Shown: piece after piece, positions 42,548 to 64,000 of the stretch
How the letters are laid out: the number at the start of each line of letters is the position of its first letter
Numbering within the stretch: position 1 is the first letter of the stretch
NCBI RefSeq assembly: GCF_016102005.1
Contig: NZ_JACFPL010000003.1
Coordinates: 1 to 64,000, forward strand
Reading direction: 5' to 3'
Source: Bifidobacterium choladohabitans
Lineage (GTDB): Bacteria; Actinomycetota; Actinomycetes; Actinomycetales; Bifidobacteriaceae
Length of the DNA stretch: 64,000 nt
Made by a program: the position numbers and the translations under genes
Notes under the pieces: model-generated
What the model saw: the letters and a program-made list of their open reading frames with translations, nothing else
The model's database searches: none
What the model was told of the DNA's origin: nothing

Positions 42548-44437
42548 CTACTGGTCTGCCGGGCGCGATGCCCCTGCCTGTACGGAGCCAGATGAAATGG
42601 TCATCGGGATGATGATCGAGGAGCCGTTGAAGAACTCGATGGTCACTTCTACGGTTCCATCAGTCACGCTGGGGTCGGCGAAGAAGTTCCCATTCAGGGT
42701 GAAGGTGCCGGCCCTCCTGTCACTGGAGAAGGCTGAACCGGCTTGGAGATAGGACCACCAGGAGGAGTTGGGGCCGACGGCCCGCCCGTATTCCTTGGCG
42801 GAGACCCTGCGGACGGCGTTCCCTTCATAGTCCATGGGGAGTGTGATTCCGCTGCGCTGGCCCACGGCGGGCGAGGAGGTGGCCTGCCCTGCTCGAACCA
42901 GATACTCATGCCAGTCGGCGCCGGCGGTGAACGTGAGGGTCAGATCGGCCAGCTGACCGTAGGCCGGTGCCTTAGGGGCAGACAGGATCCGGTTCAGGTA
43001 GGAGGCGGTCAGGGTCACCGTCTGGGAGGAAGCGTCGTAGGTGTAGTCGGAACCGGCCTTCAGGCCCTTGATCGAGTTGAAGGAGTTCCCGTTCAGGGTC
43101 AGGGGAATGGTCAGTCCCGATTGAGCCTTGGAGGCAAGATAAACAGTGTCGGAGCCTGTGGCATAGGAGGAGGTGGCACTCATGGCTGCCTGGAGTTCGG
43201 AGCCGATCCGAGCGCTCTTCCACCCATATGGGGCCTGACGTGAAATCATGGAGCCGTTGTCCCAGAGCATGAGCCCAATTCCGTCTTGGCGGGCCATCTG
43301 GTTCATGTAGTCGTAGTACTTGAGTTCCTCCCCTTCCTGGAGCACGTCGCTGCCCGTGTCATAACCCAGGAGGCCGTACTCGCCAATGACCGTGCCGATG
43401 CCCTGACTGGTCAGGTTGTCCTGGATGGTCTTGAAGGTGGCGGCGGCCGAGGTTCTGGCCGTGGTCGGGCGGCCCTGGTTGTCGGTGCCGATCCTCTCGT
43501 CGAAGCCGGTGATCCCCAGGTTGGCGCTGTAGAGCCACTCACTGTAGTAGTGGACCGTGGCAGCGAGGTATGGGTCGTTGAAGCCCTTGATCAGGGAGGC
43601 CAGATGCCTGGTGTACTCGTCGGAAGGGGTGGTGGAAGGGGTGGGCATGACGATCATGCGGTGCTCGTTGCCGGGCACGGAGCGGATGATGGAGCGTGCC
43701 TCCGTGTTCAATCTGTCCAACTTTTCCTGGGCGGACGGGTAGTCCCAGGTGTTGAACTGGGGTTCGTTGATGGTCTCGAAGGCCACCTTGTCCGACTCGT
43801 CGGCGAAGGTTCTGGCCAGCTGTTTCCAGAAATCCGAGAACATGACCTCCTCCTTGGCCCCGACCTGACCATTCCACTGCTTCAGCCAGATCCAGGAGTC
43901 ATGGTGGATGTTGACCAGGACGTGCATCCCCAGTCCGGTCGCCTGGTCGACCACCTGGCGATACCGATTGAGCCAATCCTTATTGATCAGGTAACGGTAG
44001 CCGTCCTTGTTGGCCGAGCCCAGGTCCTGGTATCGCCGGTAGACGGTCATGGGAATCCGGATGCTGGTGTAGCCCTTGTCCTTGACGGCCTTGAGCAGGT
44101 CGGGGGTCACCTTGGGGTTCCCCCAGGCCTGTTCGCCCTGATCGGGGGAGGACCAGTTGGTGTCCACTGCATCGAAGGAATTGCCCAGGTTCCATCCCCT
44201 GCCCATCTCCCTGGCGAACTGGAGAGAGGGCGTCTGCCCGGTCTTCGGCAGGATGGTAGTCGAGGCCGCGACGTTCTTTGGGGCAATTCCAGAGCGGGGT
44301 TGGGTGTCCGCACTGGCCGCAGGTGCCAGGACCAGCCCCATGGCGGTCAGAGCCGTCGTGACCGCGGTCAGGGCCGGACCCCACCCTGTCGTTCCCGTCT
44401 TGCATGTCTTCGTGATAAATGATCTGAACCGCTTCAT
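42548..44437 (-). CDS. Secreted GH5 endoglucanase/xyloglucanase with X2 modules
   Basis: A 629-residue secreted enzyme. A long signal peptide ends near VLAPAASADT. The catalytic GH5 domain begins REMGRGWNLGNSFDAV; Glu225 in FETINEPQF is the acid/base and Glu353 in VIGEYGLLG the nucleophile, as in subfamily 4-type endo-beta-1,4-glucanases that often cut xyloglucan. About residues 430-520 form an X2 (CBM_X2) module (LKAGSDYTY...TVTLTASYLNRIL) and residues 525-620 a similar second module. No LPxTG or membrane anchor is seen. Start ATG 44437; an in-frame ATG at 44536 would lengthen the signal sequence. A divergent promoter lies between it and the tRNA. Confidence 0.9.
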   Translation of the reverse strand: MKRFRSFITKTCKTGTTGWGPALTAVTTALTAMGLVLAPAASADTQPRSGIAPKNVAASTTILPKTGQTPSLQFAREMGRGWNLGNSFDAVDTNWSSPDQGEQAWGNPKVTPDLLKAVKDKGYTSIRIPMTVYRRYQDLGSANKDGYRYLINKDWLNRYRQVVDQATGLGMHVLVNIHHDSWIWLKQWNGQVGAKEEVMFSDFWKQLARTFADESDKVAFETINEPQFNTWDYPSAQEKLDRLNTEARSIIRSVPGNEHRMIVMPTPSTTPSDEYTRHLASLIKGFNDPYLAATVHYYSEWLYSANLGITGFDERIGTDNQGRPTTARTSAAATFKTIQDNLTSQGIGTVIGEYGLLGYDTGSDVLQEGEELKYYDYMNQMARQDGIGLMLWDNGSMISRQAPYGWKSARIGSELQAAMSATSSYATGSDTVYLASKAQSGLTIPLTLNGNSFNSIKGLKAGSDYTYDASSQTVTLTASYLNRILSAPKAPAYGQLADLTLTFTAGADWHEYLVRAGQATSSPAVGQRSGITLPMDYEGNAVRRVSAKEYGRAVGPNSSWWSYLQAGSAFSSDRRAGTFTLNGNFFADPSVTDGTVEVTIEFFNGSSIIIPMTISSGSVQAGASRPADQ

Positions 44438-44598
44438 CGTCAATTCAATCCCCCGTTCCCTGACTGGGCAGGCTCTGCCTGCAGGGCAGGACCTGCCGGG
44501 TGTCTCTTGCGTGCTGCTCTGAGCATGCAGTTGCACGGCATAATCCGTATCATGCCGCCTCTGTGAGCCCGCCAGCTGCGGCGGAATCTCTTATGAAT

Positions 44599-44604
44599 AT
44601 TATA
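44599..44604 (-). promoter_or_regulatory. -10 box for the secreted GH5 gene
   Basis: A perfect TATAAT (minus strand) about 160 nt before the GH5 start, in an AT-rich patch of otherwise GC-rich DNA. No canonical -35 at the proper spacing is seen. The region 44438-44683 shows no other feature. Confidence 0.4.
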
Positions 44605-44683
44605 GTTCAATCATTAGAATAAATAGCGGAGGCTGAACCAACTGACGGACCAGGCATGCATGCCCGGAATCACCGTTGAAAAG

Positions 44684-44756
44684 TGGAGCTGAGGGTAGTC
44701 GAAACCCCGACCTCTTCGATGCGAACGAAGCGCTCTACCAACTGAGCTACAGCCCC
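44684..44756 (-). tRNA. tRNA-Ala (CGC)
   Basis: Reading the minus strand gives a 73-nt cloverleaf: acceptor arm GGGGCTG/CAGCTCC, D arm AGCTCAGTTGGTAGAGC, anticodon stem CTTCG/CGAAG around the loop TTCGCAT (anticodon CGC), T arm GTCGGGGTTTCGACTAC-like, and discriminator A. The acceptor has the G3:U70 wobble pair, the identity element for alanyl-tRNA synthetase. CCA is not encoded. Confidence 0.95.
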
Positions 44757-44896
44757 ATTCGTTGCCCGACCGTAGCCGAACAACAGACTGTACCATATCG
44801 CAGGGTGGGCACAAACGCAATTTGGACGGTCTGTGCCAGACCCCGTGTTACAAACCCATGGCTCGGTTTCCGCGGCTGCCGGATGGGTTGTCGTAT

Positions 44897-45883: not shown

Positions 45884-46534
45884 TCACAGTGAACCGTTCT
45901 TGTAGGTAGTCTTGGTGTCGCCCTTGGTTCCGCGTTCGAAACGGTCGAAGGCCCGCAGATAGATCAGTGACTTGGCGTATGCCAGCCAGGAGAAACCGAA
46001 GATGATGACCAGGACCCGCAGGAAGGGCACAGAGTAGATGAGGAAGGCGAAGGCCACGTCGATGGCCAGGAGGCAGACGGCGTAGAGGGGGATCCCCATG
46101 GGAACACCGACGGAGAGTTTGAAGAAACCCCAGACTGTATTGGTGTAGCGGGATTGCAGGGGGTAGAAGAACTCGTATGAGAGGACCAGCAGGACGGTTC
46201 CGATGATAAGGATAATGAGGGCGAGATAGGTCATCGCCCCTTTCATGTTCAGCCAGAAGGCCAGTGAGTAAATGACGATGGCACCCAGCGCCAGGTGGAT
46301 GATGAAGGCGATGATGGACTGCTTGAACTCCCGGATGAAGCGTTGCAGGTACTGTCGGCAGAGGGGTATGTCCTCGTGGTCGTCATAGGCGAAGACCGTT
46401 CCATACAGGGCGCTGCGGGCGGGTCCTATCGTGACCAGGGGTATGCAGGTGACGACGAAGAGCAGGTTCAGGGCTGTGAATCTGAGCAGGGTGTTCACGA
46501 ACTGCCAGAAGGGGCTTTCGAGGTTGAAGTGCAT
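45884..46534 (-). CDS. YesL-family (DUF624) membrane protein (second)
   Basis: A 216-residue protein with about five membrane segments. FTALNLLFVVTCIPLVTIGPARSALYGTVFAY is the DUF624 signature. It is divergent from the LplB-type importer at 46945, the neighbourhood where YesL is usually found; the other copy in this window is at 19941. Its function is unknown. GAGAGGAAAGG precedes the ATG on the minus strand. Confidence 0.88.
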   Translation of the reverse strand: MHFNLESPFWQFVNTLLRFTALNLLFVVTCIPLVTIGPARSALYGTVFAYDDHEDIPLCRQYLQRFIREFKQSIIAFIIHLALGAIVIYSLAFWLNMKGAMTYLALIILIIGTVLLVLSYEFFYPLQSRYTNTVWGFFKLSVGVPMGIPLYAVCLLAIDVAFAFLIYSVPFLRVLVIIFGFSWLAYAKSLIYLRAFDRFERGTKGDTKTTYKNGSL

Positions 46535-46944
46535 GATCCGCCTTTCCTCTCTTCGACTCTACCCGCCGATCCTCCCGGCAGGGGCGGTGGCACGCAGGCA
46601 GGAGAGTGGGGCCGGCATTCCGTGACGTTGTGTCTGTCTGCTGCACCGCGGTTGCTGGGCCATTTGCCGGATTTGCCGGACCGGCCTGTCAGGAGGGTGC
46701 CCGGACCTGCCCAACCTGGACAATCTGTTGGATTGACGGGTGACGGTTCGGTCCTGTCTTACGTGGTGACATGCCTTGCAGCATACCGTGGCTTGACAGC
46801 TAAGTTAAATCGGTGTACTAATCTATTTACAAACATATAAATAAGCCTACTACGGTCTACACGGCGCCGAAAAGTAGTGGAAGCATACGGCGCATGGCTG
46901 GCAACGCAAGGGAGCGGGCTTATAGGGAAAGACAGGAGGGCAGG
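46535..46944 (+). other. 410-nt divergent intergenic region before the xyloglucan-type importer
   Basis: No gene is supported here. The right half is AT-rich and carries the promoter at 46793-46821, then ATTTA...TAAAT as an imperfect inverted repeat at about 46824-46846, a possible regulator site. No CG-centred LacI palindrome like those elsewhere in the window is evident. Confidence 0.5.
46793..46821 (+). promoter_or_regulatory. Candidate promoter of the decorated-glucan importer operon
   Basis: A perfect TTGACA (46793-46798), 17-nt spacer, then TACTAA(T) (46816-46822). About 120 nt of leader would follow before the first permease. Confidence 0.5.
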
Positions 46945-47916
46945 ATGTCAACTGGCGACATTCCTTTAAAGGCCACCCGGCGGGGTAAGCCTAAACGCCA
47001 AGGGGGCATAAGCGGCAAGAAGAAGCACAGTATCAACCTCTTCCTTTTGACCGTCCCCTTTCTGATACTGGTCATCCTCTTCAGTTACTATCCCCTGCTC
47101 GGCTGGGTATATGCCTTCTATGACTACCAGCCCCCCATACCCCTGTCGGAGAGCGAGTTCGTCGGCTTCCAGTGGTTCAAGATGATTGTCCAGAACCCGG
47201 CCCAGCTGCACACGGTCGGCCAGGTCCTGATCAACACCTTCGTTATGAGTGGCTTGGGCATTCTTACCTCGTTCTTCCCGCTGTTCTTCGCCATCGGCCT
47301 CAATGAGATTCGCAACAAGCACTTCAAGAACGTCATTCAGACCCTGACCACCCTGCCCAACTTCATCAGCTGGGTCCTGGTCTACGCCGTGGCATTCGCC
47401 ATGTTCTCCTCCACCGGCATGGTCAATGAGCTCCTGCAGAACATCCACCTGATCTCACAGCCCATCCACTTCCTGGATTCCGACAGCGGGACCTATTTCA
47501 AGATGCTCCTGTGGAGCCTGTGGAAGGGGCTGGGCTGGGGGTCCATCCTCTATCTGGCCGGCATATCCGGCATCGACCCCGAACTCTATGAGGCCGCTCA
47601 GGTGGATGGGGCAAACCGCTTCCAGCAGATCATCCATGTCACGGTCCCACAGCTCATGCCCACCTACCTGGTCATGCTGATGCTGAGCGTCTCCAACTTC
47701 CTGAACAACGGGATGGATCAGTACTTCGTCTTCCAGAACGCCTTCAATCTCAAGCACATCCAGGTGCTTGACCTGTATGTCTACAACGTGGGCATGGGCC
47801 AGAACAGCCTCTCTCTGGCTACGGCCATATCGATGCTGAAATCCCTGGTCAGTGTGGTCCTCCTGTTCCTGGTCAATTGGGCCTCGAAGCGGACCCGTGG
47901 CGAGTCAATTATCTGA
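46945..47916 (+). CDS. ABC polysaccharide importer, permease (LplB-type)
   Basis: A 323-residue inner-membrane permease with about six segments. The N-terminal cytoplasmic tail is basic (KATRRGKPKRQGGISGKKK), followed by FLLTVPFLILVILFSYYPLLGWVYAFYDY, the opening of the LplB subgroup. The EAA loop is YEAAQVDGANRFQQIIHVTVPQLMP. AGGAGG (46934-46939) stands 5 nt before the ATG. LplB/YtcP importers carry large plant-polysaccharide oligosaccharides. No ATPase gene follows. Confidence 0.94.
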   Translation: MSTGDIPLKATRRGKPKRQGGISGKKKHSINLFLLTVPFLILVILFSYYPLLGWVYAFYDYQPPIPLSESEFVGFQWFKMIVQNPAQLHTVGQVLINTFVMSGLGILTSFFPLFFAIGLNEIRNKHFKNVIQTLTTLPNFISWVLVYAVAFAMFSSTGMVNELLQNIHLISQPIHFLDSDSGTYFKMLLWSLWKGLGWGSILYLAGISGIDPELYEAAQVDGANRFQQIIHVTVPQLMPTYLVMLMLSVSNFLNNGMDQYFVFQNAFNLKHIQVLDLYVYNVGMGQNSLSLATAISMLKSLVSVVLLFLVNWASKRTRGESII

Positions 47917-47935
47917 GCGTGAGGGGAAAACAATC

Positions 47936-48877
47936 ATGAGTGACAGCATGGCAATCGAATCGAAGGGTGTCTCCCCCCTCCTGCAGCGGACCAAGGGCGA
48001 GAAGGTGTTCAATGTCTTCAACATCGCCTTCTTCATCCTTTTCGCCTTCATCTGCGTCTACCCGTTCTATTACCTGATCATCAACAGCATCTCCGACAAC
48101 ACCTTGAGTGCCGCCGGCAAGATCACCGTCCTGCCCAAGGGGGTCCACTGGAGCAACTATGTGGAGGTCTTCAAGCTGGAGGGTCTGGGCACAGCCGCCA
48201 TGGTCTCCCTGGGACGTACCGTGATCGGCGCGACCCTGACCGTACTGGCCAGTGCCTTCCTGGGCTTTCTCTTCACCCAGCAGGGCATGTGGCACCGCAA
48301 GTTCTGGTACCGCTTCATCATCGTGACCATGTACTTCAATGCTGGCTTGATTCCCATGTTCATCACGATGAAGAACCTGGGGCTGACCAACAACTTCTGG
48401 GTGTACATCCTGCCGGCCATCGTGCAGCCCTTCAACATCATCCTGGTGAAGACCTACATCGAGTCCATTCCCAAGTCCCTCCAGGAGGCGGCCGAGGTGG
48501 ACGGTGCCGGCACCCTGACGGTCTTCTTCAAAATCGTCCTGCCCATGTGCACGCCGATTCTGGCCACGGTGGCCATCTTCTCGGCCGTGGGGCAGTGGAA
48601 CTCCTTCCAGGACACCTTGATCTACATGACTGACTCCAAGCTCTACTCCCTGCAGTACCTGCTTTATCAGTACATCAACCAGGCAAGCTCCCTGGCCAGT
48701 GCAGTCAAGGCCAGCGCTGGTGGGGCCCTGAACATGGCGGCCCTGGCCACCCAGCAGACCCCGTCGTCGATCAGGATGACCGTCTCGGTCATCGTGGTCC
48801 TGCCCATCCTCTTCATCTACCCGCTCTTCCAGCGTTACTTCGTCAAGGGCATGATGCTCGGCGCCGTCAAGGGCTGA
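47936..48877 (+). CDS. ABC polysaccharide importer, permease (YtcP/LplC-type)
   Basis: A 313-residue permease. VFNIAFFILFAFICVYPFYYLIINSIS is the typical first segment of the YtcP subgroup; the EAA loop reads LQEAAEVDGAGTLTVFFKIVLP and the C terminus MMLGAVKG. The ATG at 47936 follows GAGGGGAAA. It pairs with the LplB-type permease 19 nt upstream. Confidence 0.94.
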   Translation: MSDSMAIESKGVSPLLQRTKGEKVFNVFNIAFFILFAFICVYPFYYLIINSISDNTLSAAGKITVLPKGVHWSNYVEVFKLEGLGTAAMVSLGRTVIGATLTVLASAFLGFLFTQQGMWHRKFWYRFIIVTMYFNAGLIPMFITMKNLGLTNNFWVYILPAIVQPFNIILVKTYIESIPKSLQEAAEVDGAGTLTVFFKIVLPMCTPILATVAIFSAVGQWNSFQDTLIYMTDSKLYSLQYLLYQYINQASSLASAVKASAGGALNMAALATQQTPSSIRMTVSVIVVLPILFIYPLFQRYFVKGMMLGAVKG

Positions 48878-49240: not shown

Positions 49241-50986
49241 ATGCAAGCCAGGAAGCTGACGGCGGTGGCTGCCGCTGTCATAACTGTGTCCATGGCCTTG
49301 GCGGGCTGTGGCGGCGGCAACTCCGCCAACGAGAAGGACGACGGGTCGCTCATGCAGGTGGATGTCTTCGATGGCCTGGCCAACTACCAAGGCATCCAGA
49401 AGGGCTGGTTCGCCAAGATGGTCAAGGATAAGTTCAACCTTAAGTTGAACATCGTGGCCCCCAATGTGGCGGGCGGGGGCAACACCCTCTTCGATACCCG
49501 TTCGGCAGCCGGGAATCTGGGCGACATCGTCATCACCGGTTCCGGCTCCGGACAGGCGGCCAAGTTGGTCAAGGCCCATCTGATTGACGACATGACGCCC
49601 TACCTGAAGAATGCCAAGAACATCAAGAAATACAAGTCCGCCACCGACGCCTTCAACAAGGTGGCTGGGCAGACCAGCGGGGTCTGGGGCCTGCCCGGTT
49701 CGGTCACTTCCCTGCCACCTACGGAGCCCTCCGAGGGGCTGGAGCCCACCTTCGGCCCCTACGTGCGGTGGGACATCTACAAGGAGGTGGGCTATCCCAG
49801 GATCGCCGATATGGATGACCTGGTCAATGTCCTCAAGCAGATGCAGGACAAGGCCCGGGCCGAGACCGGCGACAAGAACATCTACGCCATGTCCCTCTTC
49901 AAGGACTGGGACGGCAACATGATGAACAACGCCAAACAGCCCACCTGCTACTACGGTTATGACGAGATGGGCTTCGTCCTGGCCAAGGCCGACGGCTCCG
50001 ACTACCAGTCGATCACCCAAAAGGGCGGAATGTATGAGAAGGCCCTCCAGTTCTTCAACAAGGCATCGCAGGCCGGCCTGGTGGACCCGGAGTCGACCAC
50101 CCAGAACTACGACACCATGTATGCCAAGTACCAGCAGGGCAAGATTCTCTTTTCCTTCTGGCCCTGGCTGGGGCAGGCAGCCTACAACACCACGGACAAC
50201 AAGGCCCAGGGCAAAGGCTTCATGATCGCGCCTCTGGAGGACATGAAGATCTTCTCCTACGGCGCCACGCCTGACGGGGGCAGCACCTTCATCGCCTTGG
50301 GTTCCAAGGCCAAGAACAAGCAACGCCTGGTCAACTTCATCGACTGGCTCTACTCGCCTGAGGGAGTCTACGCCTCCGGCGCCCAGACCGGCGGGTCCGC
50401 TGGCCCCAAGAACCTGAACTGGACGGTCAAGGATGGCAAACCCGAGCTGACCGATTTCGGCGAGAAGGTCCTCTTCGGCAACGGTGCCAACGTACCGGCC
50501 GATTGGGGCGGCGGCACATACAAGGACGGGGTCTCGGCCTTGAACTACCCGACTGTGATCGTTCAGGACAAGGATCCCTCCACGGGCTACCCCTACAACG
50601 CCAGCATGTGGCCCTCGCAGCTGGCCAAGAACACGGACCCGCTGAGCACTGATTGGTCCGCCCACATGGGCGGGGCCAAGACCACCATGGAATATCTGAA
50701 GAAGAACGACAAGATCATGGTGGCCCCCGGTTCCAGCTACGTGACCCCGGACGAGTCCTCCCAGATAAAGACCCTCCGCGGCCAGGTGAAGACCGAGATC
50801 GTCAACGCCTCCTGGAAGGCCTCCTTCGCCAAGGACGACAACGAGTTCAATGCCCTCCTTGATGAGATGCGCTCCAAGGTTGACGGGATGGGCTACAAGC
50901 AGGTTCTCGATGTGGACATGAAGGACGCCAAGGATCAGAACACGGCCCGGGTGGACATCAAGAAGCAGTTCGAAAACAGGAAGTGA
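49241..50986 (+). CDS. ABC polysaccharide importer, solute-binding lipoprotein (first copy)
   Basis: A 581-residue binding protein of the large LplA-type class, longer than common MalE-type proteins. The signal peptide ends in LAGC (Cys23). The mature part begins with NSANEKDDGSLMQVDVFDGLANYQGIQKGWF. It is highly similar to the next gene, with blocks such as MQDKARAETGDKN, KQRLVNFIDWLYS and the C terminus kept almost intact. The upstream ribosome site is AAAGGGG. It probably catches a large branched oligosaccharide for the two permeases before it. Confidence 0.93.
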   Translation: MQARKLTAVAAAVITVSMALAGCGGGNSANEKDDGSLMQVDVFDGLANYQGIQKGWFAKMVKDKFNLKLNIVAPNVAGGGNTLFDTRSAAGNLGDIVITGSGSGQAAKLVKAHLIDDMTPYLKNAKNIKKYKSATDAFNKVAGQTSGVWGLPGSVTSLPPTEPSEGLEPTFGPYVRWDIYKEVGYPRIADMDDLVNVLKQMQDKARAETGDKNIYAMSLFKDWDGNMMNNAKQPTCYYGYDEMGFVLAKADGSDYQSITQKGGMYEKALQFFNKASQAGLVDPESTTQNYDTMYAKYQQGKILFSFWPWLGQAAYNTTDNKAQGKGFMIAPLEDMKIFSYGATPDGGSTFIALGSKAKNKQRLVNFIDWLYSPEGVYASGAQTGGSAGPKNLNWTVKDGKPELTDFGEKVLFGNGANVPADWGGGTYKDGVSALNYPTVIVQDKDPSTGYPYNASMWPSQLAKNTDPLSTDWSAHMGGAKTTMEYLKKNDKIMVAPGSSYVTPDESSQIKTLRGQVKTEIVNASWKASFAKDDNEFNALLDEMRSKVDGMGYKQVLDVDMKDAKDQNTARVDIKKQFENRK

Positions 50987-53140: not shown

Positions 53141-53818
53141 ATGCTCCCATTTGAAAAGAACTCAAGGATCGTCTTCTGTGGGGACTCGGTCACCGATGTC
53201 AACCGTGATTACAAGGCCATTCCTGCCGGCTGGGGCTCCTTCGGCGATGGCTATGTCAACTTGGTCCACGCCCTTCTTACCGCCGTCTACCCCGACCGGG
53301 AACTCATGATCATGAATGAGGGAGTCAGCGGGGACGACATCAAGTTGATGGCAGCCCGGTGGGACAGGGACGTGCTCGACATGAAGCCCGACTATGTCTC
53401 CGTCATGATAGGGATCAACGACGTCTGGCGTCACTTTGACGGTCCCTTCCGCCAGGCGGACCTGGTCTCCCTGGATGAATTCGAACACACCTACGAGGAT
53501 CTGATGGGCAGGACCGAGCCCCGTGTCAAAGGTCTGATTGTCATGAGCCCCTTCATGATGGAGCCCAACAGGGAGGACCCGATGAGGGCCATGGTCGACC
53601 GTTATGCCGAGGTGGCCAGGCAGGTGGCGGACCGGCATGGGGCCACTTACGTGGATGTCCAGGCCGCCATGGATCACTTCCTCGAGAAACAGAGCAGCTA
53701 CATACTCAGCATGGACCGTTGTCACCCCGGGATCGAGGGGCATATGCTGGTGGCCAGGACCTGGCTCCAAGCCGTCGGCTTCGACTGGGGAAGGACCACA
53801 TTCGATGACGAAAAGTGA
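53141..53818 (+). CDS. SGNH/GDSL hydrolase (probable carbohydrate acetylesterase)
   Basis: A 225-residue SGNH enzyme. Block I is IVFCGDSVTD with nucleophile Ser16, block III is MIGINDVWRH (oxyanion Asn) and block V is MDRCHPG with Asp192 and His195. No signal peptide. The form resembles intracellular acetyl-xylan/oligosaccharide esterases of plant-cell-wall operons, which would remove acetyl groups of xyloglucan galactosyl residues after import. It overlaps the start of the fucosidase gene by 14 bp, so the two are translated together. Confidence 0.9.
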   Translation: MLPFEKNSRIVFCGDSVTDVNRDYKAIPAGWGSFGDGYVNLVHALLTAVYPDRELMIMNEGVSGDDIKLMAARWDRDVLDMKPDYVSVMIGINDVWRHFDGPFRQADLVSLDEFEHTYEDLMGRTEPRVKGLIVMSPFMMEPNREDPMRAMVDRYAEVARQVADRHGATYVDVQAAMDHFLEKQSSYILSMDRCHPGIEGHMLVARTWLQAVGFDWGRTTFDDEK

Positions 53819-55404: not shown

Positions 55405-57432
55405 ATGAAGTTCCTCAACGGAGAATGGCTTGTGCGCGACGGTTTCGACGTCAAATATGCGGCCAATATCTACAGCGCGGATATCGAAGAGAAAAGGCTG
55501 ACCCTCTACGCCCCCTTCCAGGTGATCAGGAATCCCGGCATGACCCTGGACGGAGGACTGCTTACCATCGAGGTCACCTCCCCCCGACCCGACATCATCA
55601 CCACCCGGATCATCAACTACAGGCAGGACCACAGCCATGACCCACGGTTCGCGCTTGACCGGACCGATCCCCCGGTGAGGATTGAGGAGGATGAGAGGGG
55701 ATGGACCTTCACCAGTGGCAGGCTGGCCCTGAAGATCGCCAAGGGTGATGCCATCGACTTCGAGTACGAGTATGAGGGCCGTCCGCTGACAAGGTCGGCG
55801 TGGAGGGGCAAGGCCCTGGTGACCGATGACAATGGCAGGCCACATATGGTCGAGTCCCTCAACCTGGGCGTAGGAGAGAAGATCTACGGCCTGGGCGAGC
55901 GCTTCACCAACTTCGTCAAGAATGGGCAGACGGTCACCATCTGGAACCAGGATGGTGGCACAGGCACGGCCCAGGCCTACAAGAACGTCCCCTTCTATAT
56001 GAGCAATCGGGGGTATGGGGTCTTCGTGGATTCCACTGACAAGGTGGAATTCGAGATCGGTTCCGACGAGGTCTCCAAGGTCCAGTTCTCCGTCCCCGGC
56101 CAGGAGCTGACATATTCGGTGATCGGCGGCCAGGACCTCAAAGGGGTGCTCAACACCTATACCGATCTGACAGGCAAACCCCCACTGGTCCCCGACTGGA
56201 GCTTCGGTTTGTGGCTATCGACCTCCTTCACCACCGACTATGACGAGAAGACCGTCAACGAGTTCGTCGACGGCATGGCGGAGCGGGACATCCCCCTGTC
56301 GGTCTTCCACTTCGACTGTCGCTGGATGGACGACCTGGAATGGTGCAACTTCGAGTGGAAACACTCCGCCTTCCCGGACCCCGAAGGGATGCTGGCCCGC
56401 CTCCACCAGAAGGGCCTCAAGGTCTGTGCCTGGATCAACCCCTACATTGCCCAGAAATCCAAACTCTTCAAGGAAGGGGCCGAGAAGGGGTACTTCATCA
56501 AGCGCACCGATGGCCAGGTCTGGCAGTGGGACAAGTGGCAGGCAGGCATGGCCATCGTCGATTTCACCAACCCCGAGGCGACGGCCTGGTACCAGAGTAA
56601 GCTCAGGCACCTGCTGGACCAGGGCGTGGACTGCTTCAAGACCGACTTCGGCGAACGCATCCCCACCGAGGGCGTCGTCTATTACGACGGTTCCGACCCG
56701 GTCAAGATGCACAACTATTACACCCTCCTGTACAACAAGGCCGTCTATGACCTCCTGGTCGAGGTGAAGGGGGCCGACCAGGCCATCCTCTTCGCCCGCT
56801 CGGCGACGGTGGGCGGACAGTGCTATCCGGTCCACTGGGGCGGGGACTGCACCTCCAACTATCCCTCCATGGCCGAAAGCCTGAGGGCCGGTCTCTCCTT
56901 CGGTATGAGCGGATTCGGTTACTGGAGCCATGACATCGCCGGCTTCGAGGACCAGCCCACCCCCGACATCTACAAGCGCTGGACCCAGTTCGGCCTCCTT
57001 TCCTCGCACTCCCGCTACCACGGGTCCACTGCCTACAAGGTTCCTTGGCTATACGGGGATGAGGCCGTCGAGGTCACCCGTGAGTTCGCCAAGCTCAAGC
57101 AGCGTCTTGTGCCCTATCTGATCAAGATGTCGCATGAGACCCATGAGACGGGCCTGCCCATGATGAGGGCCATGGTCCTGGAATTCCCCAGCGACCCGAC
57201 CTGCGAGGACATCGACACCCAGTACATGTTGGGTGACGACATCCTGGTGGCCCCAATCTTCAACGAGGACGGGACCGCCCGCTTCTACGTGCCTGATGAG
57301 GGCACGGGCCGACCCTGGGCCAACATGCTGACAGGAAAGACCTATGAGCCCGGACGCTGGTACCAGGAGACCTACGACTACCACACCCTGCCGGTCCTGG
57401 TCAGACCAGGCACAGACCCCCTCCACGTGTGA
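55405..57432 (+). CDS. GH31 alpha-xylosidase (YicI-like), C terminus short
   Basis: A 675-residue enzyme. YicI-type sites are clear: GLGERFTNFVKNGQTVTIWNQDGG, the catalytic block CFKTDFGERIPTEGV with nucleophile Asp414, and WGGDCTSNYPSM with acid/base Asp481. The KTDFGERIP form separates alpha-xylosidases from alpha-glucosidases, so it should release alpha-1,6-xylose from xyloglucan oligosaccharides. YicI has about 770 residues; here the frame stops after LVRPGTDPLHV, about 90 residues early, lacking most of the distal C-terminal beta-sandwich. There is no signal peptide. Confidence 0.93.
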   Translation: MKFLNGEWLVRDGFDVKYAANIYSADIEEKRLTLYAPFQVIRNPGMTLDGGLLTIEVTSPRPDIITTRIINYRQDHSHDPRFALDRTDPPVRIEEDERGWTFTSGRLALKIAKGDAIDFEYEYEGRPLTRSAWRGKALVTDDNGRPHMVESLNLGVGEKIYGLGERFTNFVKNGQTVTIWNQDGGTGTAQAYKNVPFYMSNRGYGVFVDSTDKVEFEIGSDEVSKVQFSVPGQELTYSVIGGQDLKGVLNTYTDLTGKPPLVPDWSFGLWLSTSFTTDYDEKTVNEFVDGMAERDIPLSVFHFDCRWMDDLEWCNFEWKHSAFPDPEGMLARLHQKGLKVCAWINPYIAQKSKLFKEGAEKGYFIKRTDGQVWQWDKWQAGMAIVDFTNPEATAWYQSKLRHLLDQGVDCFKTDFGERIPTEGVVYYDGSDPVKMHNYYTLLYNKAVYDLLVEVKGADQAILFARSATVGGQCYPVHWGGDCTSNYPSMAESLRAGLSFGMSGFGYWSHDIAGFEDQPTPDIYKRWTQFGLLSSHSRYHGSTAYKVPWLYGDEAVEVTREFAKLKQRLVPYLIKMSHETHETGLPMMRAMVLEFPSDPTCEDIDTQYMLGDDILVAPIFNEDGTARFYVPDEGTGRPWANMLTGKTYEPGRWYQETYDYHTLPVLVRPGTDPLHV

Positions 57433-57615
57433 GCCGGAATCTGCTGCCAGGTGTGGTCTTCCCCGGACCGGCAGGTCGGGGAGGACCTGGATTGCATAAA
57501 TGAAAACGCCAATGGATGCATCTGCCCGTAGGCTTCCCTCCGATTGGGGACCCTGCCGTCAGGTGGTGCATCCCCTATAGATATAGCCTTGTCGGCAGAA
57601 GGAAGTGGATGGTTC

Positions 57616-58695
57616 ATGACGACCGCCCTTGAATTCGTCAGAGAGTTGGGCCTGGGCTGGAACCTGGGCAATACCTTCGATGCTTTTCCCCTCCAAGGAG
57701 AGCATGAGAAGGCCGTGAAGGAGGGTCGGAACTGGACCCCGGAGGATCAGGAGAAGCTCTGGTTCAACCAGCCCTTCACCCCTGGGTGCGCCCGCCTGAT
57801 CAGGCAGGCCGGGTTCGACACCATCCGCATCCCGGTCACCTGGGTGGAGTGGATTGACGGGGAGGGCCACGTGGACTCCATCTGGATGAACGCGGTCCGC
57901 CGGGCCGTCGACTGGAGTCTGGATGCAGGGCTCAAGGTGATCGTCAACGTCCATCATGATGGTGGTGAGGGCGACCTCCCCTGGATCCGCAAGGCGGACA
58001 AGGACCCGGATGGGGTCTGCAGGCGATTCGCCGGTCTCTGGCGTGAGATCGCCGACACGTTCAAGGATTACGGGCAGGACCTCATCCTGGAGGGTGGCAA
58101 CGAGATCGGTTTCGATGACATGGACCGGGACCAGGCCTATGTCCTCCTGGAGAGGCTCAACCAGATCTTCGTCGACACGGTCAGGGCCAGTGGATCGCAC
58201 AACGCCGACCGCTTCCTGCTGATTCCCGGTTACAACACCGACACGGCCATGACCTGTGACTCCCGTTACCACCTGCCCAAGGACAGCACGGCGGACCGGC
58301 TGATCGTATCCATCCACTATTACTCACCGGCCGATTTCGCCCTGGCCACACACGACACCACCTGGTGCAAACCCAGGCAGGTGTGGGGCAGTGAGGCGGA
58401 CATCAAGGCAGTGGAGGCGGATTTCGCCGCCCAGCGCCGCCGCTTTGTCGATGCCGGTATCCCCGTGATCATCGGAGAATACGGTCTGTTGACCGAGGCC
58501 GTGGACGGGAAGGACCATGCCAGTAACCTCAAGTGGATATCGACCGTTCTGAACTGCTGCCGCGAGAACGGATCCTGCCCGGTCCTCTGGGATACCTCCA
58601 CCAAGGAGATGTGTTTCCTGGACCGGACCACCGGCCGCTTCTTCGACCCCGACATGGCCTCCTTATTCGCCCAGGCCAGGGCGGACCGCCAGTAG
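57616..58695 (+). CDS. GH5 endo-beta-1,4-glucanase/xyloglucanase, intracellular
   Basis: A 359-residue GH5 domain without signal peptide or accessory modules. It begins FVRELGLGWNLGNTFDAF; Glu163 in EGGNEIGF is the acid/base and Glu288 in IIGEYGLL the nucleophile. The subfamily looks like GH5_4, as for the secreted GH5 at 42548. GGAAG lies upstream of the ATG at 57616. Located next to the alpha-xylosidase it would cut imported, long xyloglucan oligosaccharides or their debranched cores. Confidence 0.92.
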   Translation: MTTALEFVRELGLGWNLGNTFDAFPLQGEHEKAVKEGRNWTPEDQEKLWFNQPFTPGCARLIRQAGFDTIRIPVTWVEWIDGEGHVDSIWMNAVRRAVDWSLDAGLKVIVNVHHDGGEGDLPWIRKADKDPDGVCRRFAGLWREIADTFKDYGQDLILEGGNEIGFDDMDRDQAYVLLERLNQIFVDTVRASGSHNADRFLLIPGYNTDTAMTCDSRYHLPKDSTADRLIVSIHYYSPADFALATHDTTWCKPRQVWGSEADIKAVEADFAAQRRRFVDAGIPVIIGEYGLLTEAVDGKDHASNLKWISTVLNCCRENGSCPVLWDTSTKEMCFLDRTTGRFFDPDMASLFAQARADRQ

Positions 58696-58707
58696 GGAGG
58701 TGCCGCG

Positions 58708-60210
58708 ATGACCCTGTTCAACTGCAAACCCGCCCGCCGGATCGCCTCAGGATTCCACCCGGACCCGACCATCTGCCGTGCCCCTTCGGGCCGCTACTTC
58801 CTGGTCAACAGCTCTTTCGAGTATTTCCCGGGCCTTCCCGTATACGAGAGTGGCGACGGGAAGCATTGGGCCTTGATAGGGAACGCCATGGACCGACCTT
58901 CCCAGTTCCCCTGCGATGGCATGGGCAACAGCGGGGGCATCTATGCTCCCACCCTGCGCTGGCATGACGGCCTGTTCTACCTGATCGTCACCAACGTCAA
59001 CAAGGGGACCATGATCATGACCACGCCGGACCCCCATCAAGGATGGTCCGATCCTCTGTGGGTCAAGGGGTGGCCTGGTATCGACCCCACCCTCCTCTTC
59101 GATGATGATGGAACCGTCTACATCTGCGGCAACGAAAGCGACCAGGTTGACCAGGAAGGCAATAGGGAGGTCCCCGGTATCTATCTGTCCCGTCTGGATG
59201 TGGGCACGGGGACAGTCCTGTCTCAGAGGGAGAGGATCTGCGGGGGGACCACCGGTGCAAATCCTGAGGGGCCCCACATGTACAAGAGGGATGGCCTCTA
59301 CTATCTGATGTGGGCCGAGGGAGGCACCGAGGCCGGCCACATGGAGAACATGGCCCGTTCCGCCTCGCCTACAGGCCCTTACGAGATGTGTCCGGGCAAC
59401 CCCCTGATCACCAACCGGAGCACCCATCTGACCCTTCAGGCCATCGGCCACTGCGACTGTGCCGGATTCGATGAGGACCGTACTCTGATGGTCTTCCATG
59501 GAACCCGGAACAATCATGAGTATCCCGCCCAGGGTTGGCTGGGCAGGGAGTCCTATGAGGTCTGGTTCGATTGGAAGGATGGATGGCCCACCCTGGCCGA
59601 CCAGTCCTACGATGTCCCTCTTCTGGGCGAGGGGGAGGCCCTTGAGGATCGGATTGACTGGATCACCCCCTCCCTGGACAGGGCAGGTCGTTTCAGCGTG
59701 ACCGGTTCGGGTGACCCGACGGCGGCCCGCATACTGGTGGAGGCAGCCGGTCATGACTTCGGCCTGGACGATGGGGCGCCTATGATCGGGACCCGGCAGA
59801 CCGACTTTCGTTGCACCTTCGAGGCCACCCTCCCCGATCCGGCCCAGTTGACTTATGGTCAGGCCGGATTGGCCGTCTATGCCAATGCCGGCCATTACAT
59901 GGATCTGGCGGTGGAACCTGCGCGGAATGGTCTGGTGCACGTCCGGGGCCAGGTACACAACGCCGGTCTGGTCAGCCTGGTGGGGTCCGCGGACCTGCCT
60001 GCCGGGGCGCCCATAGGCCTTGAGATCAGGGGGGACGAGATGGGTTACGCCTTCCGTGCCTCGGGCCGGGACGGGAATCACAATCTGGGTCATGCCCCGG
60101 GCAAGGTCCTCAGCTTCACCAATGCCGGCGGCTTCACCGGAATCCTTCTGGGGGTCTACGCCCACGGATCAGGACGGGTCACCTTCGATTCGGTGGCCTA
60201 CCGGGTCTGA
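58708..60210 (+). CDS. GH43 glycosidase (arabinofuranosidase/xylosidase)
   Basis: A 500-residue enzyme. The N-terminal five-blade propeller shows SGFHPDPTICR (base Asp), WPGIDPTLLFDDDG, and ANPEGPHMYKRDG (acid Glu), the three carboxylate sites of family 43. From about residue 325 on there is a beta-sandwich (GH43 C2-like). No signal peptide. GGGAGG stands before the ATG. It would release arabinosyl or xylosyl side groups; which of them cannot be told. Confidence 0.92.
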   Translation: MTLFNCKPARRIASGFHPDPTICRAPSGRYFLVNSSFEYFPGLPVYESGDGKHWALIGNAMDRPSQFPCDGMGNSGGIYAPTLRWHDGLFYLIVTNVNKGTMIMTTPDPHQGWSDPLWVKGWPGIDPTLLFDDDGTVYICGNESDQVDQEGNREVPGIYLSRLDVGTGTVLSQRERICGGTTGANPEGPHMYKRDGLYYLMWAEGGTEAGHMENMARSASPTGPYEMCPGNPLITNRSTHLTLQAIGHCDCAGFDEDRTLMVFHGTRNNHEYPAQGWLGRESYEVWFDWKDGWPTLADQSYDVPLLGEGEALEDRIDWITPSLDRAGRFSVTGSGDPTAARILVEAAGHDFGLDDGAPMIGTRQTDFRCTFEATLPDPAQLTYGQAGLAVYANAGHYMDLAVEPARNGLVHVRGQVHNAGLVSLVGSADLPAGAPIGLEIRGDEMGYAFRASGRDGNHNLGHAPGKVLSFTNAGGFTGILLGVYAHGSGRVTFDSVAYRV

Positions 60211-60299
60211 GCAACCTGCATATTCCGCAAAAACGACAAGAGAAGTCGCCCGCTATGGGGCCACTTGGTGCCCGTCGGACGACCTGAAGGAGATCGATC

Positions 60300-62339
60300 A
60301 TGAAACCGACATTCAGCAGCTTCCTGTTCGGGGGCGATTGGAATCCGGAACAGTGGCCGGAGGACACCTGGGAACAGGACATCGAGAAGCTCGAGGACGC
60401 CCACATCAACGAGGCCACCATCAACGTCTTCTCCTGGGCCCTTCTGCAGCCTTCGGAAGAAAGATATGACTTCTCCATGCTGGATAAGATTGTGGCCCTC
60501 CTGGTCAAGCACCGGTTCAACATCGTCATGGCTACGGGGACGGCGGCCCTGCCCGCCTGGATGGTCAGAACCCACCCAGAGGTGATTCGGACCGACCAGG
60601 AGGGAAGGCATCGCGTTTCCGGTGGAAGGCACAACTTCTGCCCCACCAGTGAATACTTCCGACAGGCCTCCGGGGCTCTGGCAGGCCATCTGGCCGAGCG
60701 CTACGCCGACACCCCGGGCCTGGTGGCCTGGCATGTGGGCAACGAGTACGGCGGTGGCGGTGGCCTGTGTTACTGCGGGGGCTGTGCCCGGGCCTTCCGG
60801 GTCTGGCTGAAGGAAAAGTACGGCACGGTCCAGGCCCTCAATCAGGCCTGGTGCGCCAACTTCTGGAGCCACACCATCTACGACTGGGATGACGTGGTAC
60901 CACCCGTGGCCTACGGCGACGGGATTGGTGAAAACAAGTGCGTGATCTCCGGCCTGCAGATGGATTATCGCCGCTTCCAGGAGCAGGCACAGCTGGCCTG
61001 CTTTACCAATGAGCGCGACGCCATCCGCCGCCACGACGGGTCCACGCCAATCACCACCAACCTGATGGGGACCTTCAAGGACCTGGACTACTTCGAGTGG
61101 GCCCAGCAGATGGACCTGGTCAGCTGGGACAACTATCCGGGCATGGACACCCCATCCAGCTTCACGGCAATGTCCCACGACCTCATGCGGGGGGTCGGCG
61201 GAGGCTGTCCCTTCATGCTGATGGAGCAGACACCCAATCAGCAGAACTGGTTCCCCTTCTGCAAGGTCAAGCGGCCCGGCGAGGTCCGCAAGCTCAGTTG
61301 GCAAGCCGTGGCCCATGGGGCCGACACGGTGCAGTTCTTCCAGATGAAACAGTCCCTGGGTGGCTGCGAGCGCTTCCACGGGGCTGTCATAGACCACAGC
61401 GGGAGTGAGGAATCCCGAGTCTTCAAAGAGACCGCCGCCCTGGGGGCCGAACTGGACCGGGTGGGGGCCCGCCTCATGGGTAGCCGAGTGGTGGCCAGGG
61501 CGGCCATCATGTTCGACTGGCAGAGCTACTGGTCCCTGGAAGGTTGTGTGGGCCCCACGGCAGGATTCTCCTACCCCAAGGAGGTCCATCGCTTCTACCG
61601 GCCCCTCTACCGCCGCAACCTGGCCGTGGACTTCATCCCGAGCACGGCCCCGGTCGAGACCATGAAGAAGTACGACCTGATCCTGGCCCCGGCCCTGATC
61701 TCCCTATTGCCTGGTGTGGCAGACCACCTGGAGTCCTATGTATCCGATGGGGGCACTTTCGTCACCGGCTATATGGCCGGTATCCACGACGAACGCGACC
61801 TGGTGGTTCCAGGCGGGTATCCGGGTGCTCTAAGGAAGCTGACCGGTGTCTGGGTCGAGGAGATCGATGCCCTGGCGCCTGATGAAACCATGCCGGTGGA
61901 AGGTCTGGCAGCTGTCGACGGCCATCCTGCCGGTCAGATCGTGGCCTGCCTGATTCATTGCGAGGGAGCCAAGCCCCTTGCCTCCTACGGGGGCGGCGAC
62001 TTCTACGCCGGCAGCCCGGCCCTGACGGTGAACGGTTTCGGCGGGGGAAGGGCCTACTTCGTTGGCACTCCCTTGGACGAGGCCGGCATGGATGCCTTCA
62101 TGGATCCCATCATTGACAGCCTGGGGCTCCCTGCGGTCGACACTCCCAAGGACGTCAGCCTTTCCCTCCGCCAATCGGATGATGGGACCCGGTATGCCAT
62201 CGTGATCAACTCGGCCCGTTCACCAATTACCGCCGACCTCCCCCTCCTGAAGGGCGGTGAGGACCTCCTGGCCGGCGGCCGGGTGTCTGGCCCACTGGAT
62301 CTGCCGCCCTACGGGGTGGCTCTGGTCGCACTGGCCTGA
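60300..62339 (+). CDS. GH42 beta-galactosidase
   Basis: A 679-residue intracellular beta-galactosidase. Opening FLFGGDWNPEQWPEDTWEQDI; acid/base Glu149 in WHVGNEYGGGGGLCYC, where the cysteines form part of the usual zinc site of the family; nucleophile Glu309 in LMEQTPNQQNW. The trimerisation and C-terminal domains follow. AAGGAG precedes the ATG. In this operon it would take off beta-1,2-linked galactose from xyloglucan after the fucosidase has acted. Confidence 0.95.
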   Translation: MKPTFSSFLFGGDWNPEQWPEDTWEQDIEKLEDAHINEATINVFSWALLQPSEERYDFSMLDKIVALLVKHRFNIVMATGTAALPAWMVRTHPEVIRTDQEGRHRVSGGRHNFCPTSEYFRQASGALAGHLAERYADTPGLVAWHVGNEYGGGGGLCYCGGCARAFRVWLKEKYGTVQALNQAWCANFWSHTIYDWDDVVPPVAYGDGIGENKCVISGLQMDYRRFQEQAQLACFTNERDAIRRHDGSTPITTNLMGTFKDLDYFEWAQQMDLVSWDNYPGMDTPSSFTAMSHDLMRGVGGGCPFMLMEQTPNQQNWFPFCKVKRPGEVRKLSWQAVAHGADTVQFFQMKQSLGGCERFHGAVIDHSGSEESRVFKETAALGAELDRVGARLMGSRVVARAAIMFDWQSYWSLEGCVGPTAGFSYPKEVHRFYRPLYRRNLAVDFIPSTAPVETMKKYDLILAPALISLLPGVADHLESYVSDGGTFVTGYMAGIHDERDLVVPGGYPGALRKLTGVWVEEIDALAPDETMPVEGLAAVDGHPAGQIVACLIHCEGAKPLASYGGGDFYAGSPALTVNGFGGGRAYFVGTPLDEAGMDAFMDPIIDSLGLPAVDTPKDVSLSLRQSDDGTRYAIVINSARSPITADLPLLKGGEDLLAGGRVSGPLDLPPYGVALVALA

Positions 62340-62430
62340 CCGGCCGACGGTGAACCTGAGTATCCGGGTCCTGTCATGGCCGGCATCAAGGAGATCCGGG
62401 CCAGGATGGAGCCAGGGGTATGGGCGGGAG

Positions 62431-63270
62431 TCAGGCGGTCGGACCTTCCTGGCCCCTGAAGGTCCGCTTGATCCAGGCGGCCGCGAGACGGGGCCAGATC
62501 TGCACGCAGGGTTCGATTCCATTGGTGCCCTGCCAGGCGGTCTCTTCAGTCCCCAGGCCCAGACCGTGGCCTCCGTGGGGGAAGAGGTGGGCTTCCACGC
62601 TGACCCCAGCCTGCTTGCATGCTTCTACCAGCATGAGGGTGTTCTCCGGAGGGACCAGGCCATCCTCCATGGTGTGCCAGACGAATACGGGCGGGGTCTT
62701 GCTGTCTATGTGCTTCTCGATGGAAACCGCTTCCAGGGCTGCAGGGTCCTCCTTCTTGTCGCCCAGGAGGTGGTCGATGCTCCCCCGGTGTGCGAGGGGG
62801 CCGGAGGTGATGACCGGATAACCCAGCATGAGGCCGTCGGGGCGGACGGCGTCGGGGTCATAGCCGTGGGCCCTGAGGTCCTGGTCTCCGGCGGTCGTGG
62901 CCAGGTTGGCCGCCAGGTGGCCACCGGCTGAGAAGCCCATGATACTGATGGCCTTGGGGTCCACGTGCCACTGGTCGGCGTGCTCACGGATGCGCTTCAT
63001 GGCTTCGGCCGCCTCGACCAGGGCTGTCGGGTACACGGAGGGCCAGCAGGAATAGCGCAGGACGAAGGCATTGCAACCAGCCGCCAGGAACTGTACGGCG
63101 ATGGGTTCGGCCTCCCTGTCGGAGGTCATCTCATAGCCACCCCCGGGGATGACCAGGACCGATGGGCGGACCCGGTCCGGCACTACCTCCTCGCTGTTGT
63201 CCAGGCTGTAGCCGACGAACTTGGCCCGGCTTCCGTCAATCCCCTCAATCTCCTGTTCAAAATACTGCAT
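62431..63270 (-). CDS. Alpha/beta hydrolase, acetyl-esterase-like
   Basis: A 279-residue enzyme of the BD-FAE/Aes-type. PSVLVIPGGGYEMTSDREAEP has the HGGG-type oxyanion hole; the nucleophile elbow is IMGFSAGGH with Ser114; the acid and base appear in TMEDGLVPPEN and FPHGGHGLG. No signal peptide. It is oriented opposite to GH42 and in the same direction as the GH94 gene, from which it is separated by 76 nt. It probably deacetylates imported plant-wall oligosaccharides. Confidence 0.9.
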   Translation of the reverse strand: MQYFEQEIEGIDGSRAKFVGYSLDNSEEVVPDRVRPSVLVIPGGGYEMTSDREAEPIAVQFLAAGCNAFVLRYSCWPSVYPTALVEAAEAMKRIREHADQWHVDPKAISIMGFSAGGHLAANLATTAGDQDLRAHGYDPDAVRPDGLMLGYPVITSGPLAHRGSIDHLLGDKKEDPAALEAVSIEKHIDSKTPPVFVWHTMEDGLVPPENTLMLVEACKQAGVSVEAHLFPHGGHGLGLGTEETAWQGTNGIEPCVQIWPRLAAAWIKRTFRGQEGPTA

Positions 63271-63346
63271 CCGCTCTCATCCTCTTCGATAGTTAGGGCC
63301 CGCAGGCCGTGGCTCATTGTAAATCACCGGATGACCCAGTGTCACT

Positions 63347-64000
63347 TCAGAAGGTCACGGTCACGTCCACCGGATTTTCGCTGGTCTGGGGTGGTACCAT
63401 TCCGCCACTCAGTTCGTGGCCGTCCAGGCTGACCGAACGCCTTCCGGTCCGTTTCATGGAGATCCGATAGGTGACCCCCCTCCAGGTCCTGCCGACGGTC
63501 AGGTCATTGAATTCGGCGGGCAGGTGGGGTTCGATGACCAGTCCGTCCAAGGTGGGCCTGACCCCCAGCAGGTACTGGGAGACATCCACGAAGGACCAGG
63601 CGGCCGTACCTGTCAGCCAGGAGTTCTTTCCTTCGCCGGGGGTGGGGGACTCGGGACCGGCCATCATCTGGCAGTAGACGTAGGGCTCCACCTTGCGGAT
63701 GTCGGACTTCTCCTCCAGGTAGGCCGGGCAGGTACGCCTGTAGACCGCGAAGGCCTCCTCGTCATCGCCGACCATGGCGTTGGCTATGGAGATCCAGGGG
63801 TTGACGTGGCAGAAGATGCCGCCGTTCTCCTTGTACCCCCTGGGATAGGAGGAGATCTCGCCCAGTTCGATCCGGTAGGTGGAATAGGCGGGGGCCAGGA
63901 TGGCCGTACCCCAGGAGGAGGTCAGCCTCTCCTTGACCGAGGTCAGGGCCTGTCGGGCCTTGCCGTCATCGAGACCGATACCGGCCATCACACACATCCC
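63347..64000 (-). CDS. GH94 cellobiose phosphorylase, C-terminal part
   Basis: The 3' portion of a gene that runs past the window edge; about 218 codons remain. It shows FCHVNPWISIANAMVG, QMMAGPESPTPGEGKNSWLTGTAAW and the terminal beta domain (LLGVRPTLDGLVIEPHLPAEFNDLTVGRTWRGVTYRI), all typical of cellobiose/cellodextrin phosphorylases. It would convert cellobiose and phosphate to glucose 1-phosphate and glucose, the last step for the glucan backbone. The start codon is outside the window. Confidence 0.93.
   Translation of the reverse strand, partial: GMCVMAGIGLDDGKARQALTSVKERLTSSWGTAILAPAYSTYRIELGEISSYPRGYKENGGIFCHVNPWISIANAMVGDDEEAFAVYRRTCPAYLEEKSDIRKVEPYVYCQMMAGPESPTPGEGKNSWLTGTAAWSFVDVSQYLLGVRPTLDGLVIEPHLPAEFNDLTVGRTWRGVTYRISMKRTGRRSVSLDGHELSGGMVPPQTSENPVDVTVTF

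Follow-up and report, generated by a model that had tools for sequence, protein, structure and literature searches.

Genes and palindrome of the locus

The 64,000-base window analysed here is the first part of a 286,329-base contig from a 2.08 Mb Bifidobacterium genome. At its far end, and running past it on the contig, lies a group of genes for an ABC importer, glycosidases, esterases and a TetR-family regulator that very probably forms a xyloglucan-oligosaccharide utilization locus of the honey-bee gut group of Bifidobacterium, with import, trimming and TetR control all part of the best explanation. The GH31 protein of the window has counterparts of 98-99% identity in B. polysaccharolyticum W8117, Bifidobacterium sp. 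7101 and B. mellis Bin7N, all of which we take to be honey-bee gut bifidobacteria, and by this comparison the source organism is close to B. polysaccharolyticum and B. mellis. Every gene named in the initial annotation, which had proposed a complete import-then-trim pathway for fucosylated xyloglucan, is present, and Pfam and solved-structure searches bear out the enzyme families given there. The features are as follows, positions beyond 64,000 being those of the contig.

42548-44536, minus strand: secreted GH5-CBM_X2-CBM46 protein (Pfam; probable start ATG 44437), predicted outer endo-xyloglucanase
45884-46534, minus strand: DUF624 (YesL/MusI-like) membrane protein (PF04854, 50.5 bits), divergent from the ABC operon
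46822-46845, plus strand: first copy of the operator palindrome, separated by 48 bp from the adopted perm1 start
46894-47916, plus strand: ABC permease 1 (perm1; PF00528)
47936-48877, plus strand: ABC permease 2 (perm2; PF00528; start ATG 47936)
49241-50986, plus strand: solute-binding lipoprotein 1 (lipobox LAGC; 581 aa)
51144-52895, plus strand: solute-binding lipoprotein 2 (lipobox LAGC; 583 aa)
53141-53818, plus strand: SGNH acetylesterase, predicted cytoplasmic (PF13472; best PDB match 4oap, acetyl xylan esterase, 212 bits)
53805-55328, plus strand: GH29, α-L-fucosidase or α-L-galactosidase (PF01120)
55405-57432, plus strand: GH31 α-xylosidase of YicI type (Pfam; best PDB match YicI)
57544-58695, plus strand: predicted cytoplasmic GH5 (PF00150; start uncertain, TTG 57544 or ATG 57616)
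58708-60210, plus strand: GH43, probable α-L-arabinofuranosidase (PF04616 and PF17851)
60300-62339, plus strand: GH42 β-galactosidase (PF02449; best PDB match 3tts, 719 bits)
62431-63270, minus strand: α/β-hydrolase esterase (PF20434, BD-FAE)
63347-65848, minus strand, past the window end at 64,000: GH94 cellobiose phosphorylase (PF17167; best PDB match 2cqs, cellobiose phosphorylase, 1037 bits)
66066-66089: operator palindrome, copy 2, between GH94 and tetR
66261-67160, plus strand, beyond the window: TetR regulator
67184-68653, plus strand, beyond the window: GH1 β-glucosidase (TIGR03356, 559 bits, cut-off 478.5)

An AT-rich site occurs upstream of both perm1 and tetR/GH94; it is part of a 24-bp palindrome with the consensus CTTATTTATAA-N2-TTATAAATAAG. 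A matrix made from 36 non-bee sites and no bee sequence, applied to 82 kb of the window genome, scored the site at 46822 with 27.3 bits and that at 66066 with 25.7 bits, against 0.2 bits for the next non-overlapping match; the seed for choosing its sites had been written after the bee sites were seen. Searched against the whole genome with at most 3 mismatches, a pattern written from both sites found these two only, and a control found none. All examined stretches together (1.34 Mb) hold 78 matches of at least 20 bits. Of these, 72 lie upstream of a locus gene at a distance of no more than 500 bp, and the other 6 are found elsewhere. In three shuffled controls no match reached 20 bits and a single one reached 14. 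With a matrix of all sites, at least one site of 20 bits is found in 28 of 30 Bifidobacteriaceae core loci (defined below), a count that is partly circular for the non-bee loci, because many of their sites trained the matrix, and not circular for the bee loci.

Through this palindrome, the TetR protein probably represses three units: the predicted operon of importer and enzymes, GH94 with the esterase, and the predicted operon that tetR itself forms with GH1. It is the candidate binder because one site lies between tetR and GH94, because TetR is missing from the four Enterococcus stretches and from the G163 stretch, in which there is likewise no site, and because of an analogy with the BgrT regulators; the Enterococcus loci contain one unlinked operator-like match in total. 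BgrT proteins are bifidobacterial TetR-family regulators with predicted palindromes of 18-22 nt and are linked to β-glucoside genes (PMC4746261); like the window TetR, they are encoded beside β-glucosidase and phosphorylase genes and are accompanied by a palindromic site. That paper does not mention xyloglucan. A LacI protein encoded near some loci is a rival candidate for the operator.

Conservation across the Bifidobacteriaceae

We surveyed 189 Bifidobacteriaceae genomes for the GH31 and examined the neighbourhoods of 49 loci, defining the core locus as GH31, permease 2, a binding protein and GH29. Presence counts are lower bounds, many of the examined stretches being only 20 kb. A YicI-type GH31 (at least 66% identity) is encoded in 44 of the 189 genomes, in one case as a partial gene with an internal stop, and in 30 of these 44 genomes the importer, binding protein and GH29 lie beside it. 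The core is present in 34 of the 49 loci, comprising five bee loci (the window, G000, with G003, G011, G019 and G022), four from Enterococcus and 25 from other Bifidobacteriaceae. The bee label of G011 rests on 92-99% protein identity across the locus. A second Aeriscardovia aeriphila record (L032) was excluded from the gene-order comparison, G027 from the core counts (it was kept in the operator counts), and G028 and the broken G065 altogether; G143, G061, G078 and G102 were treated as records of B. tsurumiense, B. choerinum, B. italicum and B. pseudolongum that were already included, and were not added again. G057, G062 and G135 miss the core definition, apparently since the examined stretch is cut.

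Much of the gene order is shared among the Bifidobacteriaceae loci: YesL, perm1, perm2, solute-binding protein (SBP), (SGNH), GH29, (GH3), GH31, (GH5), (GH43) and GH42, after which ROK, TetR, esterase and GH94 follow in varying order. Since GH31, permease, binding protein and GH29 occur together in 34 of the 49 loci, in a similar order across the Bifidobacteriaceae, the grouping goes beyond chance. Each of the five bee loci carries the cytoplasmic GH5, TetR, esterase, GH94, GH43, GH42 and SGNH genes, and none carries ROK. Among the 25 other Bifidobacteriaceae core loci, GH42 is found in 23, ROK and TetR in 20 each, GH43 and the esterase in 19 each, SGNH in 14, GH94 in 12, the cytoplasmic GH5 in 4 and the secreted GH5 in 3 (the GH3, ROK and LacI query proteins were confirmed by Pfam); perm1 is found in them at 68-84% identity. 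A DUF624 homologue accompanies four of the five bee, 15 of the 25 other Bifidobacteriaceae and three of the four Enterococcus core loci, the fourth Enterococcus match being barely below the threshold.

The initial annotation had called such a pathway unusual for bifidobacteria. That description fails, because the locus is widespread in the family and because predicted XG-1 islands of marmoset bifidobacteria (MARM_A1, B. myosotis and B. hapali) are already published (PMC8406136). Xyloglucan loci of this plan are thus common in Bifidobacteriaceae, and the window locus is, as judged from its genes, a well-conserved and useful version of an established type of system and no oddity. Beyond correcting its rarity, our analysis adds to the earlier description a putative regulon, TetR and GH1 as members, the absence of GH3 and a doubt over GH29.

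The locus-type GH31 alone proved unsuitable as a marker of the locus. In six genomes (G004, G008, G010, G122, G124 and G129) neither GH29 nor a matching importer accompanies it; in G030 it comes with GH94, TetR and the esterase, again without GH29 and importer, and G126 has it with an importer and without GH29. The same is true of a second copy in G011, which has a second importer behind it and no GH29 of its own; directly before its xyloglucan locus (L042-L043), that genome contains this second GH31 (76%) together with stretches resembling GH3 and another pair of permeases, which two binding proteins accompany. GH29 of the locus type (at least 64%) was found in 7 of 27 genomes of the genus, including G007, where a remnant (L069, about 7831-15199) retains a DUF624 gene, a GH29 at 95% and a match to TetR, along with truncated matches to permease and SGNH, and lacks this GH31 and a binding protein. 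In G003 (L050:208-3126), a LacI regulator and a third binding protein (59%) are encoded between GH42 and the esterase, and a similar LacI-SBP pair is present in G093, G115 and G070.

Proposed pathway, its likely substrate and the alternatives

In the pathway we propose, the secreted GH5-X2-CBM46 enzyme would cut xyloglucan outside the cell, and the two lipoproteins and two permeases would import the pieces with an ATPase from a gene elsewhere. Inside, the SGNH enzyme and the esterase would take acetyl groups, GH29 a terminal L-fucose or L-galactose, GH42 galactose, GH43 arabinofuranose and GH31 the α-xylose at the non-reducing end. The glucan backbone would be shortened by the cytoplasmic GH5, probably also by the GH1 behind tetR, and leftover cellobiose would be phosphorolysed by GH94. 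The genome also encodes a xylose isomerase, which we count in favor of this pathway. As the initial annotation had remarked, almost all of the enzymes lack a signal peptide: inspection by eye found a signal-like N-terminus in the GH5 at 42548-44536 only, and a simple hydropathy scan, used in place of a dedicated predictor, found no strongly hydrophobic N-terminal segment in the other locus enzymes.

The two binding lipoproteins, described earlier as a pair, are encoded in tandem, share the lipobox and are 73% identical to each other. Neither matched Pfam, and a PDB sequence search with lipoprotein 2 gave no match. Pfam found no ATPase family among the scanned locus genes, nor the SusC/SusD outer-membrane pair of the Bacteroidetes xyloglucan utilization loci (XyGUL). 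The DUF624 protein scores 68 bits against the NCBIfam MusI_fam model, below the cut-off of 160; MusI is a helper of the maltose ABC importer in Corynebacterium.

For the α-xylosidase step, the GH31 aligns to E. coli YicI across residues 1-670 with 819 bits, and the KTDFGERIP motif noted earlier is present in it and in all 47 GH31s compared. Residues 307 and 308 of YicI bear on xylosidase versus glucosidase activity. At the site of Phe308 the window protein has Arg, within HFDCRWM, a sequence found in 40 of the 47; three (Enterococcus) have HFDCLWM, one has HFDSRWM, and three were unmatched by the motif search.

The import-then-trim plan resembles the xyloglucan locus of Ruminiclostridium cellulolyticum, in which GH42, GH31 and GH3 convert XXXG-type oligosaccharides to monosaccharides and cellobiose and growth on xyloglucan requires the ABC importer (PMC4780118). 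Both loci have an importer with two membrane domains and a binding protein, and cytoplasmic GH42 and GH31 enzymes, here predicted from sequence; the cellobiose end product, presumed there to go to a phosphorylase, has its likely counterpart in the GH94 substrate of the window locus. Cellulosomal xyloglucanases, a GH3 β-glucosidase and two-component genes in the cluster are particular to R. cellulolyticum, whereas the window locus has one secreted GH5-X2-CBM46, a cytoplasmic GH5, GH94 within the locus, two SBPs, esterases, GH29, GH43 and TetR with its palindrome, and no GH3. No two-component genes were found among the scanned genes of the window locus, which has TetR instead. The marmoset XG-1 islands, which are predictions only, include a β-glucosidase, an α-xylosidase and an α-fucosidase for xyloglucan (PMC8406136), and the adjacent GH31 and GH29 of the window are alike at the level of enzyme type, with the reservation given below for the sugar of GH29; for the β-glucosidase, the window locus has no GH3 and a predicted GH1 20 bp behind tetR. 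In Enterococcus casseliflavus, E. innesii and two Enterococcus sp., perm1, perm2, SBP, SGNH, GH29 and GH31 are found at 46-74% identity with a DUF624-like gene. A ROK protein is encoded in all four, and GH42 and GH94, like TetR, were not found in the 22 kb examined. The locus of Enterococcus sp. RIT-PI-f, unlike that of the window, has an AraC-type response regulator and a histidine kinase.

The secreted GH5, which we take from its solved relatives to belong to subfamily GH5_4, has as best PDB matches the multi-module cellulases 5xrc, 5e09 and 4v2x (264-279 bits), the alignments covering GH5 and both added modules. The initial annotation had spoken of X2 modules; CBM_X2 is present in one copy, and the second module is CBM46. 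Homologues (47-100% identity) occur in 11 of the 189 family genomes. In eight genomes (G000, G003, G019, G143, G067, G051, G057 and G062) the distance to the locus GH31 is at most 16 kb, and in G011 it is about 30 kb. In G029 the neighbours of the homologue are GH43, the esterase, TetR and GH94 and not this GH31, and in G030 it lies on a contig different from that of GH31. Because homologues adjoin the locus in other species, the secreted GH5 is tied to xyloglucan use; its co-regulation is a supposition only, because it has no operator and is separated from the operon.

Several observations weigh against the pathway as proposed. Between the secreted GH5 and the operon lie a tRNA-Ala gene and two other genes, G022 (B. 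polysaccharolyticum) carries the locus without this enzyme, and GH5 enzymes of its type also cut other β-glucans. G022 lacks the perm1 operator, and no operator site of G066 or G163 reaches 20 bits. The best PDB match of GH43 is a β-xylosidase (5z5d, 321 bits), followed by the arabinofuranosidases 5joz and 5jow (BoGH43B/A; 241 and 238 bits). A search of the genome for a fucose mutarotase (PF05025) gave no match. In a diet test, the bee gut community was unchanged by hemicellulose and pectin additives, including xyloglucan (PMC10198554).

The GH29 raises a further difficulty. Its best start is ATG 53805, giving a 14-base overlap with the SGNH gene, and its nearest solved relative is not a fucosidase: it is the exo-α-L-galactosidase 7ljj (417 bits), the next different enzyme being the α-L-fucosidase 9lxl (198 bits). 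Because the GH29 is closer to this exo-α-L-galactosidase than to the other solved fucosidase-type chains (at most 198 bits), the word "fucosylated" in the initial proposal names a candidate substrate. The enzyme may take α-L-galactose and not fucose, with the locus serving L-galactose-bearing xyloglucans or another plant glycan containing L-galactose, an alternative that we consider unlikely though credible. Against it, fucosylated xyloglucan is far commoner in plants, and given this abundance fucose is the likelier sugar. Moreover, a network study places the 7ljj enzyme in cluster 2, where fucosidases also occur, and states that xyloglucan is a source of fucose for the fucosidases of this cluster and of cluster 3 (PMC11189522).

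We regard as improbable a broad locus for β-glucans or cello-oligosaccharides, in which the GH5s and GH94 would act on cellulose-like or mixed-linkage glucans, with the debranching enzymes as accessories. The relatives of the GH5s, which for the cytoplasmic enzyme are 6xrk (248 bits) and then 3zmr (162 bits), include broad endoglucanases and β-1,3-1,4-glucanases, GH94 is nearest to cellobiose phosphorylase, and BgrT-type regulators are linked to β-glucosides. In the 34 core loci, however, GH42 occurs in 28, GH43 in 27 and the esterase in 25, and only 9 have a cytoplasmic and 6 a secreted GH5 within 16 kb (some stretches being short), so that the debranching set is the constant part of the loci. 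Use of insect or milk glycans by GH29 and GH42, enzymes known from host-glycan pathways of other bifidobacteria, with GH31 as an α-glucosidase, is highly implausible for a YicI-type GH31 with KTDFGERIP that is linked to GH43, GH94 and esterases.

The xyloglucan pathway thus set out provides a testable account, with a defined promoter site, of possible hemicellulose use by bee gut bifidobacteria; hemicellulose is present in the pollen intine and reaches the bee hindgut (PMC10198554). Among the papers listed by our literature searches on xyloglucan, hemicellulose, bifidobacteria, bees and regulons (for one result set, 25 of 442), no title or abstract opening describes the bee locus, and a broad bifidobacterial paper mentions xyloglucan once in passing (PMC7889515).

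Candidate backbone β-glucosidases and a neighbouring system

The pathway had been called complete, and the enzymes named are indeed present, yet no β-glucosidase was listed. The GH3 β-glucosidase of the locus type is found in none of the five bee loci and in 24 of the 25 other Bifidobacteriaceae core loci, and the GH3s of the window genome are at most 41% identical to it among the matches listed. An orthologue was found in 1 of the 27 genomes of the genus (G023, 64%), the others reaching at most 41% among the matches listed. In R. cellulolyticum, the next xylose can leave only after GH3 has removed the glucose exposed by GH31 (PMC4780118). Two enzymes of the bee loci could stand in for it, the cytoplasmic GH5 (5 of the 27 genomes of the genus and 10 of the 189 of the family, at 56-100% identity) and the GH1, which starts 20-28 bp behind tetR in all five bee loci. 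From this operon position, the GH1, although outside the window, is a likely member of the locus and stand-in for GH3.

A loss of GH3 in the bee lineage was considered and is not claimed. In a GH31 tree rooted on Enterococcus, the bee proteins branch after G163 and outside the group holding the GH3-bearing loci, so the absence may be ancestral; support at the node that decides this order is 0.177. Simple replacement of GH3 by the cytoplasmic GH5 is weakened by G067, G069, G091, G051 and G135, which carry both. GH1 was seen in all five bee loci, three of the four Enterococcus stretches and G163, and we did not use its presence beside GH3-less loci as evidence for a general rule: GH3-bearing stretches are often only 20 kb, and the GH1s differ, the three closest of those from G163 and Enterococcus being 58-60% identical to each other and 33-38% to the bee GH1, and a further E. 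casseliflavus GH1 28%. We offer tentatively, and with somewhat more doubt than belief, a GH3-less variant in which the cytoplasmic GH5 would cut the partly debranched import to give cellobiose for GH94, with GH1 as a helper under the TetR palindrome, together with the idea that one widespread TetR regulon controls xyloglucan use in bifidobacteria.

A separate system precedes the locus in the window. At 30905-42464 (plus strand) are genes for an Opp-type ABC importer (SBP_bac_5, two permeases and a fused ATPase), an α/β hydrolase, a 1243-aa SOGP-type glycoside phosphorylase and an adjoining GH1, which from their families look like a system for the phosphorolysis of β-1,2-gluco-oligosaccharides or similar compounds.

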